Shown: positions 36,447 through 44,855 of the stretch, piece by piece
Numbering within the stretch: the stretch's first letter is position 1
How the letters are laid out: every line of letters begins with the position of its first letter
Assembly (NCBI RefSeq): GCF_001422375.1
Contig: NZ_LMMU01000001.1
Span: 124,223-188,222, forward strand
DNA: 64,000 bases
From: Methylobacterium sp. Leaf99
Lineage (GTDB): Bacteria; Pseudomonadota; Alphaproteobacteria; Rhizobiales; Beijerinckiaceae
Direction: 5' to 3'
Translations under genes and position numbers: made by a program
The notes under the pieces: model-generated
What the model was told of the DNA's origin: nothing
The model's database searches: none
Seen by the model: only the letters and a program-made list of their open reading frames with translations

Positions 36447-37142
36447 ATGCTTCCGTTCGATGCCGCTCAGGCGAACAATTATCCGGCCGTGATCGGGTGC
36501 GACGAGGTCGGGCGCGGGGCGCTGTGCGGACCCGTGGTCGTCGCGGCGGTGTGGTTCGACCCCCGGGCGATTCCGGGGGAGATCCTGGCGGCGCTCGACG
36601 ATTCGAAGCGCCTGAAGCGGGCGGAGCGCGAGCGTCTGACCCCCCTCATCCGCGCCCATGCCCGGGTAGCCCTGGCGGCCGGGTCGCGGGCCCTCGTCGA
36701 TCGGATCAACGTGCGCGGCGCCACCCTCGACGCCATGGCGCGCGCCGTCCGCCGCCTCGGCCTCGATGCCCCGGTGCTGGTCGATGGCCGCGACGCGATC
36801 CCCGGCCTCGCCCTCTGCCGTCCCGTCATCGGCGGCGACCGCATCGTGCCGCAGATCGCCGCCGCCTCCATCGTCGCCAAGACCGTGCGGGACGCGGTGA
36901 TGCGATCGCTCGCCCGGCGCCACCCGGCCTATGGCTGGGACAGCAACGTCGGCTACGGCACCAAGACCCACCTCGCCGGCTTGGCGACCCTCGGACGCTC
37001 GGCGCATCACCGCTGCAGCTTCACCCGCGCCTACGCACCCGAAACCCGCGCCCACGCGCCGGAGGCCCGCATCCACGGGCCCGAGTCCGCCCTCAGAACA
37101 GCGACAGCTGCGCCGTCGGCCGGGCGAACAGGTCGGTCCTGA
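36447..37142 (+). CDS. rnhB: Ribonuclease HII
   Basis: A 231-residue RNase HII that cuts the RNA strand of RNA-DNA hybrids and single ribonucleotides in DNA. The catalytic core is VIGCDEVGRGALCGPVVVAAV (DEVGRG), then DSKRLKRAERERL, VLVDGRD and ISAASIVAKTVRD-like IAAASIVAKTVRDAVM with YGWDSNVGYGTKTHLAGL. The C-terminal 35 residues are a variable Ala/Pro/Arg tail. Its last 50 bp overlap the 3' end of the radical SAM gene on the opposite strand. Confidence 0.94.
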   Translation: MLPFDAAQANNYPAVIGCDEVGRGALCGPVVVAAVWFDPRAIPGEILAALDDSKRLKRAERERLTPLIRAHARVALAAGSRALVDRINVRGATLDAMARAVRRLGLDAPVLVDGRDAIPGLALCRPVIGGDRIVPQIAAASIVAKTVRDAVMRSLARRHPAYGWDSNVGYGTKTHLAGLATLGRSAHHRCSFTRAYAPETRAHAPEARIHGPESALRTATAAPSAGRTGRS

Positions 37143-38205
37143 GCTTCAAGCGCTCCTCGGGGTAGCCGAGGCGACGCCGGGCGAGGCGCATGCGGCGGAC
37201 GATGAGGTCGGCGTAGGGCCCGGCCCCGACCATGCGGCGGCCGTACTCCGCATCGTAGGCACGCCCGCCGCGGGCTTGGCGCACCAGGGACATCACGTGC
37301 GCGCGGCGCCCCGGATAATGCTCGGCGAACCAGTCGTCCACGAGGGCGTCGAGTTCCAGGGGCAGGCGCAGCAGCACGTGGTTCGCTTCCCGCGCGCCGC
37401 GCTCGCGGGCGGCGGTCAGGATCGCCTCGATCTCATGGTCGTTCAGCGACGGGATCACCGGGGCGGCGATGACCATGACGGGAATTCCCGCCGCACTCAG
37501 GCGCTCGATGGCCTCGAGGCGCTTCTTCGGATGCGGCGCGCGCGGCTCCAGGCGGCGGGCGAGGTCGGGATCGAGGGTGGTGACCGAAACGGCGACCTTC
37601 ACGAGATCGTCCCGGGCGAGGTCGGTGAGAAGATCGAGGTCGCGCACCACGAGGTTCGACTTGGTGACGATTCCCACGGGGTGCCGGAACCGCGCGAGCA
37701 CTTCGAGGACGCTCCGGGTGAGGCGATGCTCGCGCTCGATGGGCTGGTACGGGTCCGTCGCCGTTCCCAGCGCGATGGTGGCAGGCCGGTAGCCCGGCGC
37801 AGACAATTCGGCCGTCAGGAGTTTGGCCGCCTCCGGCTTGTGAAACAGCCGCGTCTCGAAATCGAGGCCGGGCGAAAGGCCGACATAGGCGTGATTGGGC
37901 CGGGCGAAACAATAGACGCAGCCGTGCTCGCAGCCGCGATAGGGGTTGATCGAGCGGTCGAAGGAAATGTCGGGGGAGGTGTTGCGGCTGATGATCGTGC
38001 GGGCGTGCTCGGCCGTCACCACCGTCCGCAACGGGACCGGGGCCTCGGTCTCCCAGCCGTCGTCGAAGCTTTCGCGCCGCGTCGCCTCGAACCGCCCATC
38101 CGGATTGGCCGTGGCACCGCGCCCGCGCCGCGCCTCGCCCGGACGCGTCGTGCCGGCGAGGCGGCGCGCGGCGTCCGATGCCCCTTGACCCGCCGATCCC
38201 CGCAC
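37093..38205 (-). CDS. PA0069-family radical SAM protein (SplB-like)
   Basis: A 370-residue radical SAM protein. The iron-sulfur motif is RGCEHGCVYCFARPNHAY (Cys92, Cys96, Cys99), preceded by the family SFDRSINPYRGCEHGC sequence and followed by LGTATDPYQPIEREHRLTRSVLEVL. The family is related to spore-photoproduct lyases but its substrate is unknown. The start is GTG at 38203-38205; the first 50 residues are low-complexity. The 3' end overlaps rnhB tail-to-tail by 50 bp. Confidence 0.88.
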   Translation of the reverse strand: MRGSAGQGASDAARRLAGTTRPGEARRGRGATANPDGRFEATRRESFDDGWETEAPVPLRTVVTAEHARTIISRNTSPDISFDRSINPYRGCEHGCVYCFARPNHAYVGLSPGLDFETRLFHKPEAAKLLTAELSAPGYRPATIALGTATDPYQPIEREHRLTRSVLEVLARFRHPVGIVTKSNLVVRDLDLLTDLARDDLVKVAVSVTTLDPDLARRLEPRAPHPKKRLEAIERLSAAGIPVMVIAAPVIPSLNDHEIEAILTAARERGAREANHVLLRLPLELDALVDDWFAEHYPGRRAHVMSLVRQARGGRAYDAEYGRRMVGAGPYADLIVRRMRLARRRLGYPEERLKLRTDLFARPTAQLSLF

Positions 38206-38373
38206 CCTGCCAGTCCTCCGTCACGTCACGCAAGGAACATATCATGAACACAGCTCGGAGGGGCTGCACATAATCCAGGCAAAGACCGGTTTGAGTCCCG
38301 GCCTGCGCGCTTCCGCCAGCAAACCGGCCCCGCCGACAGCTTCAGTCGGCGCGAAAATACGGTATGCGCGGGC

Positions 38374-38895
38374 ATGATCTCCGCTCTGATCCATGTGGCG
38401 CGGCCGGCCGATCCCGATGTGGTCGACCGGCTCGCCGACACCCTCGGCGCCCTCGTGGCCGGCGTCGCCGCCGGGCTCGTCGGCGACGCGGTCATCGTCG
38501 CATCGAGCCACAGCGCGGCCATCGACACCGTCGCGGAGGCCACGGGTGCCAAGCTGGTCCTGCACCCGCGCGGCGGCTCGGCGTGGTCGGCCGGCGCCAA
38601 GGCGGCACGGCGCGAATGGGTCCTGTGCCTGGAGGCCGGCGACGTGCCGGCCGAGGGCTGGATCCGCATCCTGGACCGCTTCATCGGGACCGCCCGGCCC
38701 GACGTGACCCTGGCCCGCCTGCGCCGCCCGCATACGGGTTTGCCGGCCCGCCTCGCCGCCCGGGGCGAGGGCGTCATCGGCGTCGGCGCGCCCCGTCCGG
38801 GCGACCTCGTCCGCCGCGAACGCCTGCTCGCCGGCCCGCGCTTCGTCCGGCGGGTGGCGGTGCGCCGGCTGACGGCCCGCCTCGAGCGGTCCTGA
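38374..38895 (+). CDS. Small glycosyltransferase-family-2-like protein
   Basis: A 173-residue protein resembling the N-terminal half of a GT-A glycosyltransferase: ISALIHVARPADPDVVDRLADTLGALVAG, VIVASSHSAAIDTVAEATGAKLVLHP, then AGAKAARREWVLCLEAGDVPAEGWI, where the usual metal-binding D-x-D position appears as EAGD. It is shorter than normal GT2 enzymes and may be non-catalytic or a truncated family. It converges on the exonuclease gene with 3 bp between stops. Confidence 0.6.
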   Translation: MISALIHVARPADPDVVDRLADTLGALVAGVAAGLVGDAVIVASSHSAAIDTVAEATGAKLVLHPRGGSAWSAGAKAARREWVLCLEAGDVPAEGWIRILDRFIGTARPDVTLARLRRPHTGLPARLAARGEGVIGVGAPRPGDLVRRERLLAGPRFVRRVAVRRLTARLERS

Positions 38896-38898
38896 GCG

Positions 38899-39765
38899 TC
38901 AGGACTCGGCGGCCGCTTGCATCCGCAGGCGCAGGCGCTCGACGTCATCGTGGTTGCCGGACAACAGATCGGTGATGTCGCCGTCGAGCAGGGCCGCGAC
39001 GTGACGGCAGTTGGTGCCGTAGCGCCCCGCCATGCAGGTGCAGCGCAGGCGCAGACCCGTCGCCCGGTCCTCCAGGGTGACGGCGTAGCGGTCGCCGCGC
39101 CGGCCCTTCACGGCAAAACTGAGCGCCTGCACCCGTCGCGCCGCCGAGCCGGTACGGTCCGGCACCCCCCCTGGAACGGCGCGCGGCGGCATGGCACGGT
39201 CCGGTCCCTCCGGCACTGTCGTGACCGGCAGACGGATGGCGCGGGACAGACCGAAGACATCGGGCGCCCCCGTCCGGCGCACGGCCGCCAGGGCGATCTC
39301 GGCGCACGCATAGGCATCCTCGCCGGCGTCATGGTGCTCGAAGCGGATGCCGAGGCGCGCCGCGACCTTGCCGAGTCCGCAGCCTTCTTCCGCCGGAAAC
39401 ACCCGTCGCGCGATCTGGAGGGTGCAGAGATAGGAGAAGGCCGGCGGGCGCAGGCCGTAGGCGGAGAGCGACGCGCGCAGGACCCCCATGTCGAAGCCGG
39501 CATTGTGGGCCAGCACCAGGCCGCTCGCGAGGTCGGGCAGGAACTCGGCTATCACCTCCGGAAACGTCGGCTGCGTCCGCACATCCGCCGGCACGATGCC
39601 GTGGACCCGGATGTTGCCGGGCGAGAACCGCAGCTCCGGCGGCCGGATCAGCCGCGATTCCCGACGCACCACGGCGCCGTCCGCGATCCAGGCCAAACCG
39701 ACGGCGCAGGCACTGTCGCGCCGCTCGTTGGCGGTCTCGAAGTCGAGGGCGATGATCTGCTGCAT
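38899..39765 (-). CDS. DEDDh 3'-5' exonuclease with C-terminal SWIM-type zinc motif
   Basis: A 288-residue protein. Residues 1-170 form a DnaQ-like exonuclease: QIIALDFETAN (Asp8, Glu10), LVLAHNAGFDMGVL (middle Asp) and HHDAGEDAYACAEI (the H-x4-D end motif). The C-terminal 50 residues carry LRCTCMAGRYGTNCRHVAALL, a CxC...CxH SWIM-like zinc motif (Cys242, Cys244, Cys253, His255), which in other proteins binds nucleic acid or protein. The exonuclease-plus-SWIM combination is uncommon to my knowledge. It is transcribed alongside ligA, about 48 bp downstream of nothing else; a DNA repair role is plausible. Confidence 0.8.
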   Translation of the reverse strand: MQQIIALDFETANERRDSACAVGLAWIADGAVVRRESRLIRPPELRFSPGNIRVHGIVPADVRTQPTFPEVIAEFLPDLASGLVLAHNAGFDMGVLRASLSAYGLRPPAFSYLCTLQIARRVFPAEEGCGLGKVAARLGIRFEHHDAGEDAYACAEIALAAVRRTGAPDVFGLSRAIRLPVTTVPEGPDRAMPPRAVPGGVPDRTGSAARRVQALSFAVKGRRGDRYAVTLEDRATGLRLRCTCMAGRYGTNCRHVAALLDGDITDLLSGNHDDVERLRLRMQAAAES

Positions 39766-39813
39766 GGGTCTCCGCGCGCGGCCCGCTTCAACTACCCCCG
39801 ACGAAAAGACAGC

Positions 39814-43377
<3,564 letters not shown>

Positions 43378-43441
43378 ACCCGGCTTGCGGCGGCGCCCGG
43401 CCTCCCGCATGAGATTTTCGGGAGTGGCTCGGGAGGATGCG

Positions 43442-43759
43442 ATGTCGAAGACGATTCTGGCGGCGGGCCTTGCCTGCCTCCTCGCGGGGGGCGCGGTCGT
43501 CGCCGAATGCCCCCGCGCCGAACCGCCGCCGGCGAGCGCCCGGCCGGCCAAGCCCGCCTTCCCCGAGAAACCGCCCTGCCTCGAGGCCAAGGGCGGCTGC
43601 CCCGGCTGGGAGGCCTACAGCTACAACGACGCCATCAAGGCCTACAACGCTCAGATCGCGGTCTACCGCCCCCTTGCGGAGGCCTACGTGAAGGGTTTGA
43701 ACGCCTACGTGAAGGCGGCCTCGGACTATGCGCAGTGCGAGGTGAAGGCACTCCAGTAG
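43442..43759 (+). CDS. Small secreted protein of unknown function
   Basis: A 105-residue protein with a signal peptide (MSKTILAAGLACLLAGGAVVAE). The mature part has a Pro/Lys-rich start (PAKPAFPEKPPCLEAKGGCPGWEAYSYN) and then a helical segment with Tyr at regular intervals (AYNAQIAVYRPLAEAYVKGLNAYVKAASDYAQCEV). Four Cys could form two disulfides. No family is recognised. The ATG at 43442 follows GGGAGGATGCG, a good ribosome site. Confidence 0.7.
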   Translation: MSKTILAAGLACLLAGGAVVAECPRAEPPPASARPAKPAFPEKPPCLEAKGGCPGWEAYSYNDAIKAYNAQIAVYRPLAEAYVKGLNAYVKAASDYAQCEVKALQ

Positions 43760-43841
43760 GAGACCGCCCGTCGCTTGACCCCCGGCGGGGGCGATGCCAC
43801 AGCCCGGCGCATCCTCATCCCCAGCCAGACTGGACGGTTAG

Positions 43842-44855
43842 ATGCCCGAATCCCTCGACCTCCTCGTCCTCGGCAACGCCATCGTCGACCTCATCGCCCG
43901 TGCCGACGAGGACTTCCTCGCGGCGCAAGGCGTGCCGAAGGGGGCGATGCAGCTCATCGACGAGGCGCGGGCCGAGACCCTGTACGATGCCATGGGACCG
44001 GCCACCATCGTGTCGGGTGGCTCGGGGGCCAACACCGCCGTCGGGGCCGCGTTGCTCGGGGCGAAAACCGGCTTCATCGGCAAGGTCCGCGACGACGAAC
44101 TCGGCGGTCTCTACGCCCACGATCTCAAGGCCACGGGCGTACGCTTCACCGTCCCGGCCGCCACCGATGGCCCGGCGACGGCGCGCTGCTTCATCCTGGT
44201 GACGCCCGACGGCGAGCGCACCATGAACACGTATCTGGGCGCCTGCCAGAGCCTGTCCCCGGCCGATGTCGACGAGGCCACCGTGCGAAGCGCCCGCGTG
44301 ACCTACCTCGAAGGTTACCTGTGGGACCCGCCGGCCGCCAAAGACGCCTTCCGCAAGGCCGTGCAGATCGCCCACGCCGCCGGCAACGCCGTGGCGCTCA
44401 CCCTGTCGGACGCGTTCTGCGTCGGCCGTTATCGCGACGAATTCCTGGGGCTCATCCGCGACGGCAGCATCGACATCCTGTTCGCCAACATCGGCGAGCT
44501 GCAGAGTCTCTACGAGACCGACGATGCCGAGGTCGCCCTCAAGGCCCTGCGGGACGAGCGCGACGCGCGCGGCAAGCACCTCCTCGGCCTCGTCACCCGC
44601 TCGGCCGACGGAGCCATGGTGGTCAAGGGCGGCGAGATCCGCAGCGTCGAGGCGTCCCCGGTGCACGAGCTCGTGGACACCACGGGTGCCGGCGACCTGT
44701 TCGCGGCGGGCTTCCTCGCCGGCCACGCGCGCGGCCTCGACAACGCGGCGAGCGCCCGCCTCGGCGCCCTGGCGGCAGCGGAGGTGATCCAGCACATCGG
44801 CGCCCGGCCCCAGCACGACCTCGTGGCCCTGGCGAAGGCTCAGGGCCTGCTCTGA
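43842..44855 (+). CDS. PfkB-family carbohydrate/nucleoside kinase (adenosine kinase-like)
   Basis: A 337-residue ribokinase-fold kinase. It starts LDLLVLGNAIVDLIARADEDFL, contains the glycine motif IVSGGSGANTAVGAALLGAKTGFIGKVRDDELG and ends with the catalytic signature ELVDTTGAGDLFAAGFLAG (Asp of DTTGAGD as base). Alphaproteobacterial proteins of this subgroup are usually named adenosine kinase. Substrate is not proven. It converges on the quinone oxidoreductase gene, 24 bp apart. Confidence 0.88.
   Translation: MPESLDLLVLGNAIVDLIARADEDFLAAQGVPKGAMQLIDEARAETLYDAMGPATIVSGGSGANTAVGAALLGAKTGFIGKVRDDELGGLYAHDLKATGVRFTVPAATDGPATARCFILVTPDGERTMNTYLGACQSLSPADVDEATVRSARVTYLEGYLWDPPAAKDAFRKAVQIAHAAGNAVALTLSDAFCVGRYRDEFLGLIRDGSIDILFANIGELQSLYETDDAEVALKALRDERDARGKHLLGLVTRSADGAMVVKGGEIRSVEASPVHELVDTTGAGDLFAAGFLAGHARGLDNAASARLGALAAAEVIQHIGARPQHDLVALAKAQGLL

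Follow-up and report, generated by a model that had tools for sequence, protein, structure and literature searches.

Directly downstream of the DNA ligase gene of Methylobacterium sp. Leaf99 lies a gene that appears to join a DEDDh exonuclease to a small SWIM-type zinc motif, which raises the question of what such an enzyme does beside a ligase and what the motif adds to it. In the window, the whole stretch of 64,000 nucleotides analysed here, ligA occupies positions 39814..42276 of the minus strand and encodes an NAD-dependent DNA ligase of 820 residues from a MPASK start, within a longer open reading frame that reaches 42774. Its product carries the Pfam domains DNA_ligase_aden, OB, ZBD and HHH_2, and ends at the C-terminus in a BRCT domain. 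The exonuclease gene, on the same strand, starts 48 bp beyond the end of ligA and runs over 38899..39765, the exact frame of 288 residues that the initial annotation had delimited from the sequence. Both domains named in that annotation lie in this one frame: an N-terminal DEDDh domain with predicted 3'-5' polarity (residues 1-170; 39256..39765) and a C-terminal SWIM-type zinc-finger module (residues 214-264; 38974..39126), connected by a flexible linker (residues 179-213; 39127..39231), all on the minus strand.

The exonuclease domain matches RNase_T (PF00929) at residues 6-157 with 62.3 bits against a curated cut-off of 24 (E 1e-16). The catalytic residues D8, E10, D92, H145 and D150, previously described as intact in residues 1-170, were all found, and are invariant in 61 of 61 aligned SWIM-bearing homologues; these rows were selected by the SWIM motif, so the alignment tests the catalytic residues and not the motif. 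Residues G221, G224, Y227 and G262 are likewise invariant in the motif-selected rows. The AlphaFold2 model, built from 39 rows, has a mean pLDDT of 86.6 and a pTM of 0.66, and falls below 50 at residues 194-211 of the linker. Superposition of its exonuclease core against the DinG exonuclease of Staphylococcus aureus gave a VIA-align Z of 21.3 with an rmsd of 2.2 over 175 residues, and against E. coli Pol III epsilon (2gui) a Z of 19.6 with an rmsd of 2.0 over 161. The top matches in sequence and fold are the DNA enzymes PolC, DinG and Pol III epsilon, and RNase T and 3'hExo are also among the fold matches. Enzymes of the DnaQ-like superfamily cleave in the 3'-5' direction by a two-metal mechanism, and by analogy with them both the exonuclease activity and the polarity of the window protein are predicted. 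At the protein level it also matches the PADLOC model PDC-S48 (residues 49-232) and the CRISPR-associated DEDDh model (residues 5-158) with 89.4 bits each, as expected from a common exonuclease domain.

SWIM zinc fingers bear their ligands in the pattern CxC-xn-CxH and fold as strand-strand-helix, with ligands at the end of a strand and the start of the helix. The window protein has a CxC-x8-CxH motif formed by C242, C244, C253 and H255 (39001..39042, minus strand), inside the range of residues 239-260 where the initial annotation had located it. Pfam SWIM (PF04434) matches residues 230-260 with 16.3 bits in the whole protein, below the cut-off of 19.6, and the same site reaches 19.6 bits and is flagged over the cut-off in a six-frame scan of the whole genome; among six SWIM-bearing homologues scanned with this model, four score below the cut-off and two give no match. 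A structure prediction of the C-terminus had been proposed as a check. In the AlphaFold2 model this domain has strands at residues 216-220, 226-234 and 237-242 and helices at 245-248, 254-260 and 272-287, which would place the CxC at the end of the third strand and the CxH where helix 254-260 begins. Foldseek against predicted viral structures returned A0A8S5QV46, named 'SWIM zinc finger protein' (E 1.5e-4, rmsd 2.4, 74 columns, 32% identity); judged from the alignment length and the name, the match is taken to fall on the C-terminus of the window protein. Modelled alone, the module has a mean pLDDT of 80.6, and a search of this model against the PDB gave no significant match (Foldseek E 0.62 at best, and VIA-align Z at most 4.3, with an rmsd of 3.9 over 74). 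Its sequence profile returned three implausible matches only, headed by fibronectin (E 0.0048). The module is basic, with a net charge of +4 and a range of +1 to +6 over 19 rows. Overall, sequence and predicted fold indicate that it is very probably a SWIM zinc finger, and zinc binding is predicted accordingly from the motif. The sole other SWIM match in the genome (L176, at G000 C4:55412-55474) scores 30 bits in a 457-residue frame and is of the CxC-x6-CxH type.

Conservation of the motif in orthologues was, beside a zinc-binding predicted fold, a point on which the initial annotation had made its zinc finger depend, and the residues prove to be conserved. All four ligands are kept in 52 of 52 Methylobacterium and Methylorubrum loci, these being drawn from the best 80 of 526 loci in a contig scan in which one of the six seed peptides derived from the motif. 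Altogether, 61 of 111 loci have CxC...CxH within the exonuclease frame, namely the window's own, eight from the search of the order and the 52 of Methylobacterium and Methylorubrum. A genus-wide profile search found the exonuclease in 110 of 111 genomes, the one miss being a genome of 70% completeness, and in 104 of these it continues through the SWIM region, to profile position 282 at least. The 30 best-scoring loci of this search all have exonuclease, SWIM and CxC-x8-CxH in a single frame. The six shorter matches are of three kinds. In G1412, G1431 and G1432, genomes of 7.7-8.8 Mb, a ligA-linked exonuclease is kept (L371, L372 and L373) that ends before the SWIM module, and nearby frames of at least 40 residues hold no CxC...CxH; in G1396 and G1390 (L374 and L375) exonuclease and SWIM stand in two frames, owing to a split gene or a sequencing error; and in G1456 the match lies at a contig edge. 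The three genomes that keep the exonuclease without the module indicate that the finger is dispensable there, and offer natural test cases for its contribution.

Comparison of the window gene with seven near relatives gave dN/dS values of 0.05-0.15 for the exonuclease domain, 0.40-0.75 for the linker, 0.12-0.29 for the SWIM module and 0.04-0.46 for the tail. By these ratios the SWIM module is under clear purifying selection and the linker much less so. The seven pairwise comparisons argue that the motif is not a product of chance and that the module is kept by selection, the three genomes without it notwithstanding.

The best NCBIfam match of the window protein is NF004844/PRK06195, a family of stand-alone DEDDh exonucleases titled 'DNA polymerase III subunit epsilon', with residues 4-185 aligned to positions 3-184 of the 309-position model and 190.4 bits against an equivalog cut-off of 373. 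The BRCT-bearing proteins L083 and L197 also score below this cut-off and match most of the model, whereas the window protein has SWIM in the place of BRCT. Exonuclease, SWIM and BRCT profiles, home-built from few rows and run on the collected loci, distinguished four architectures: exonuclease alone (for example L011-L014 and L114-L116), exonuclease-BRCT (L083, L084 and L164), exonuclease-SWIM, and exonuclease-SWIM-BRCT, represented by two proteins (L009, identical to L179, and L150, identical to L182). The Caulobacterales proteins L083 (Brevundimonas pishanensis) and L084 belong to the same clade as the window protein and are also encoded directly after ligA, and differ in having a C-terminal BRCT domain instead of SWIM. 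L179 (G184) and L182 (G740) have an exonuclease and a SWIM module homologous to those of the window protein, with ligA adjoining, followed by a BRCT domain that the window protein lacks. The fusion reported in the initial annotation is supported, with the correction that in the wider clade BRCT often takes the place of SWIM and that two proteins carry both.

In a 65-row tree of exonuclease domains, the clade members used form one supported clade of 29 rows (96/98), which includes the window protein; L197 comes from a viral contig and the other rows are alphaproteobacterial. Seventeen of the 19 alphaproteobacterial SWIM rows fall into one subclade (98/96). With groups defined after the tree was known, a single clade of all 19 is not rejected (p-AU 0.483), and a single origin of all 22 SWIM rows, the viral ones included, is borderline (p-AU 0.0498). 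As for the BRCT domains, the one in L179 shares 77% identity with the LigA BRCT of L184, from another genome, and the one in L084 shares 71% with the BRCT of the LigA encoded next to it; the L083 domain is divergent, at 39-53% identity to the others. No branch of the BRCT tree (17 rows, 77 columns) is starred, so the label 'LigA-type' rests on identity and not on the tree. The simplest reading of these architectures takes the window protein as derived: SWIM would have entered between exonuclease and BRCT, and the Methylobacterium line would later have lost BRCT, exonuclease-SWIM-BRCT being the probable intermediate architecture. On this reading one domain replaced another, and probable intermediates survive in living lineages. 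Among the matches listed, with genome sampling, score limits of 1e-20 to 1e-25 and capped numbers of loci that may have let some escape, no SWIM fusion appeared outside the order in samples of the class (385 genomes), the phylum (398) and an Actinomycetota-centred set (246). A hit on a Streptomyces plasmid (H33, 92% query coverage), the one record translated out of 140 matching, encodes an exonuclease with a stretch that looks BRCT-like by eye and no SWIM motif.

The exonuclease-SWIM architecture, for which the initial annotation named no characterised protein, is real and is not confined to the lineage of the window. Three of 54 loci on viral contigs of IMG/VR (L201, L203 and L219) likewise carry a DEDDh domain and SWIM in one chain, with RNase_T and SWIM both above their Pfam cut-offs. 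Compared to the window protein, their SWIM is of another type (CxCRDxxxRxxPCKHMY, CxC-x9-CxH), and they stand elsewhere in the exonuclease tree than the alphaproteobacterial SWIM rows. The fusions with this other SWIM type suggest that the combination probably arose more than once, and on sequence grounds the viral ones are apparently independent. The C-terminal part alone of such a viral protein (L201-type; query residues 182-320, in two cases from 135) is matched by 30 of 38 loci (L282-L311, IMG/VR), and none of these 30 frames matches the exonuclease profile. One of them, L299 of 365 residues, also matches the BRCT profile, so that SWIM and BRCT are found together again.

The adjacency to ligA, in the same direction, which the initial annotation had read as a hint at repair or replication, recurs widely. 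Of 68 SWIM-bearing loci, 51 have ligA upstream on the same strand, at a distance of up to 220 bp in 50 cases and of 971 bp in one; the other 17, including all seven titled Methylorubrum, have no ligA neighbour. In these counts a few genes are included twice (e.g. L003/L033 and L005/L047), and some of the unlinked loci span only 1.1-1.5 kb upstream. A simple scan detected no terminator-like site between the two genes of the window, which are probably transcribed together. By a simple gene caller, the exonuclease-BRCT genes of L084, L083 and L187 start 3, 13 and 24 bp after ligA, respectively. Since ligA also stands beside these relatives, the linkage is probably older than SWIM, and the ligA-adjacent clade spans several alphaproteobacterial families. 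For many exonuclease-only and BRCT-bearing relatives outside the clade, the stretch examined gave no ligA match. RecN is encoded upstream of ligA in L178, L179, L184 and L187, where all four proteins tested, candidates picked by size, exceed the TIGR00634 cut-off; in L083 and L084 an M28 peptidase is the neighbour in its place, and in the window RecN does not adjoin ligA. In L184, a GNAT gene on the opposite strand apparently separates ligA from the exonuclease gene.

Taking together the domains, the conserved residues, the selection, the neighbourhood and the four architectures, we propose, as the reading we hold somewhat more probable than not, that the window protein is a DEDDh 3'-5' DNA-repair exonuclease that is held by SWIM on nucleic acid or on a partner and trims 3' ends for sealing by LigA. 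By two-metal catalysis, the N-terminal domain would shorten DNA from its 3' ends. The SWIM finger, which would occupy the place of the LigA-type BRCT of the sister proteins, may serve as a basic adaptor that keeps the enzyme attached to nucleic acid or to a partner; its charge and its flexible linker agree with the holding of nucleic acid. Trimming of 3' ends at the substrates of LigA is suggested by the recurrence of ligA as a neighbour, by the LigA-type BRCT of the sisters and by the RecN of some clusters. The enzyme would most likely work at nicks, gaps or breaks and trim 3' ends that are mismatched, damaged or over-extended, which would then be resynthesised and sealed by LigA. Weighing against this reading are the 17 SWIM-bearing loci away from ligA, the three genomes that keep the exonuclease and lack the finger, the absence of any LexA-type box around the two genes, the fold matches to RNase T and 3'hExo, the position of RecN away from ligA in the window, the peptidase neighbour in L083 and L084, and the relatives outside the clade that show no ligA. 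More tentatively, and with a low probability, LigA and the exonuclease might form a proofread-before-sealing pair, in which lineages swap a docking module, LigA-type BRCT or SWIM, by way of the exonuclease-SWIM-BRCT form, and in which unligatable 3' ends are removed at the substrates of LigA.

The main rival to nucleic-acid holding gives SWIM chiefly a protein-protein role, linking the enzyme to another repair protein while the exonuclease domain alone contacts DNA. We consider it possible at clearly less than even chance: SWIM replaces BRCT, a domain that is often protein-binding (PMC10386641), and L179 and L182 carry both modules; but the finger is basic, and BRCT, its partner in the swap, can bind DNA as well (PMC10386641). 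A further question is whether the CxC...CxH element is a zinc finger at all or a decayed, or structural but metal-free, element. The sub-threshold Pfam score of the whole protein, the failure of all six homologues to reach the SWIM cut-off, two of them giving no match, and the lack of a close PDB fold for the isolated module would suit such an element, yet the four ligands are identical in all 52 loci (from the best 80 of 526) although the sequence around them is in large part variable, a viral SWIM model is matched, and viral exonuclease relatives have RNase_T and SWIM both over their cut-offs; this alternative is highly improbable.

As for the substrate, an RNA-directed exonuclease, acting in RNA turnover or in removal of RNA from hybrids beside a ligA that is there incidentally, would agree with the presence of RNase T and 3'hExo among the fold matches, with a weak match to the Rv2179c-like exoribonuclease model PF16473 (E 0.0059, 16.8 bits against a cut-off of 27) and with the 17 of 68 loci that have no ligA neighbour. 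It is rather unlikely, as the best matches in sequence and fold are the DNA enzymes named above, and the LigA-type BRCT of the sisters and the adjacency to ligA across several families point to DNA. The DnaQ-like fold would also suit an external proofreader for a polymerase without a 3'-5' exonuclease of its own. The window protein itself is not the canonical Pol III epsilon, with 46.6 bits against the TIGR01406 (dnaQ_proteo) equivalog cut-off of 222.7; the DnaQ of the genome is another gene (L190), which exceeds that cut-off with 253.3 bits, and at E 0.01 RNase_T matches these two genes only. DNA_pol_A_exo1 has three matches in the genome, one of which, a strong one, lies in DNA polymerase I, a protein above its own equivalog cut-off. 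The main polymerases thus have proofreading, which makes an external proofreader improbable and weakens, in particular, a role as stand-in for DNA polymerase I.

A precedent for the favoured reading, a repair exonuclease held by an adaptor, is MrfB of Bacillus subtilis, which is reported to be a stand-alone DEDDh 3'-5' DNA repair exonuclease with a C-terminal adaptor (PMC11194089). There the adaptor is a TPR and the enzyme works with the helicase MrfA (PMC11194089), whereas in the window protein the adaptor would be SWIM. SNF2 ATPases associated with SWIM are named in the accessible part of another paper, and exonucleases are not (PMC5512222). Our search of the open-access literature, which mostly leaves subscription papers outside, returned no report of a DEDDh-SWIM protein. 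The kind of exonuclease is known, with NF004844 as its nearest curated family, and the SWIM-bearing form is new as far as the open-access literature shows. In the usual picture of bacterial ligation, LigA on its own seals the ends that the polymerase has left. An exonuclease that recurs beside ligA and exchanges its modules for binding DNA or a partner would be a candidate quality-control enzyme for 3' ends prior to ligation, a hypothesis testable in a tractable plant-associated bacterium.

The alphaproteobacterial LexA box follows the pattern GTTC-N7-GTTC. Positions 38250-44213, around ligA and the exonuclease gene, hold no such box with up to one mismatch, which argues against SOS control of either gene, and across the whole window the pattern is no commoner than expected (42 occurrences with up to one mismatch, 43.9 expected). 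An exact copy lies at 38235-38249 (minus strand), about 30 bp before a radical SAM gene of the PA0069 family at 37093-38205 on the same strand (NF033668, 513.5 bits against a cut-off of 360). The gene was found in 57 of 59 Methylobacterium genomes searched; in 30 of these loci (119 kb, with 33 such boxes in all), the box before the gene recurs in 25, its first base 32-71 bp ahead of the estimated start. This radical SAM gene is probably part of the SOS regulon. The open-access literature yielded no paper joining Rv2578c with LexA; a link between SOS and radical SAM enzymes resembling SplB has been reported (PMC3765255). Between the radical SAM and exonuclease genes, on the plus strand at 38374-38895, stands a GT2-like frame of 173 residues (PF00535, E 0.0019, below cut-off), which among the loci compared occupies this place only in the closest relatives of the window (L003/L033, L032 and L034).
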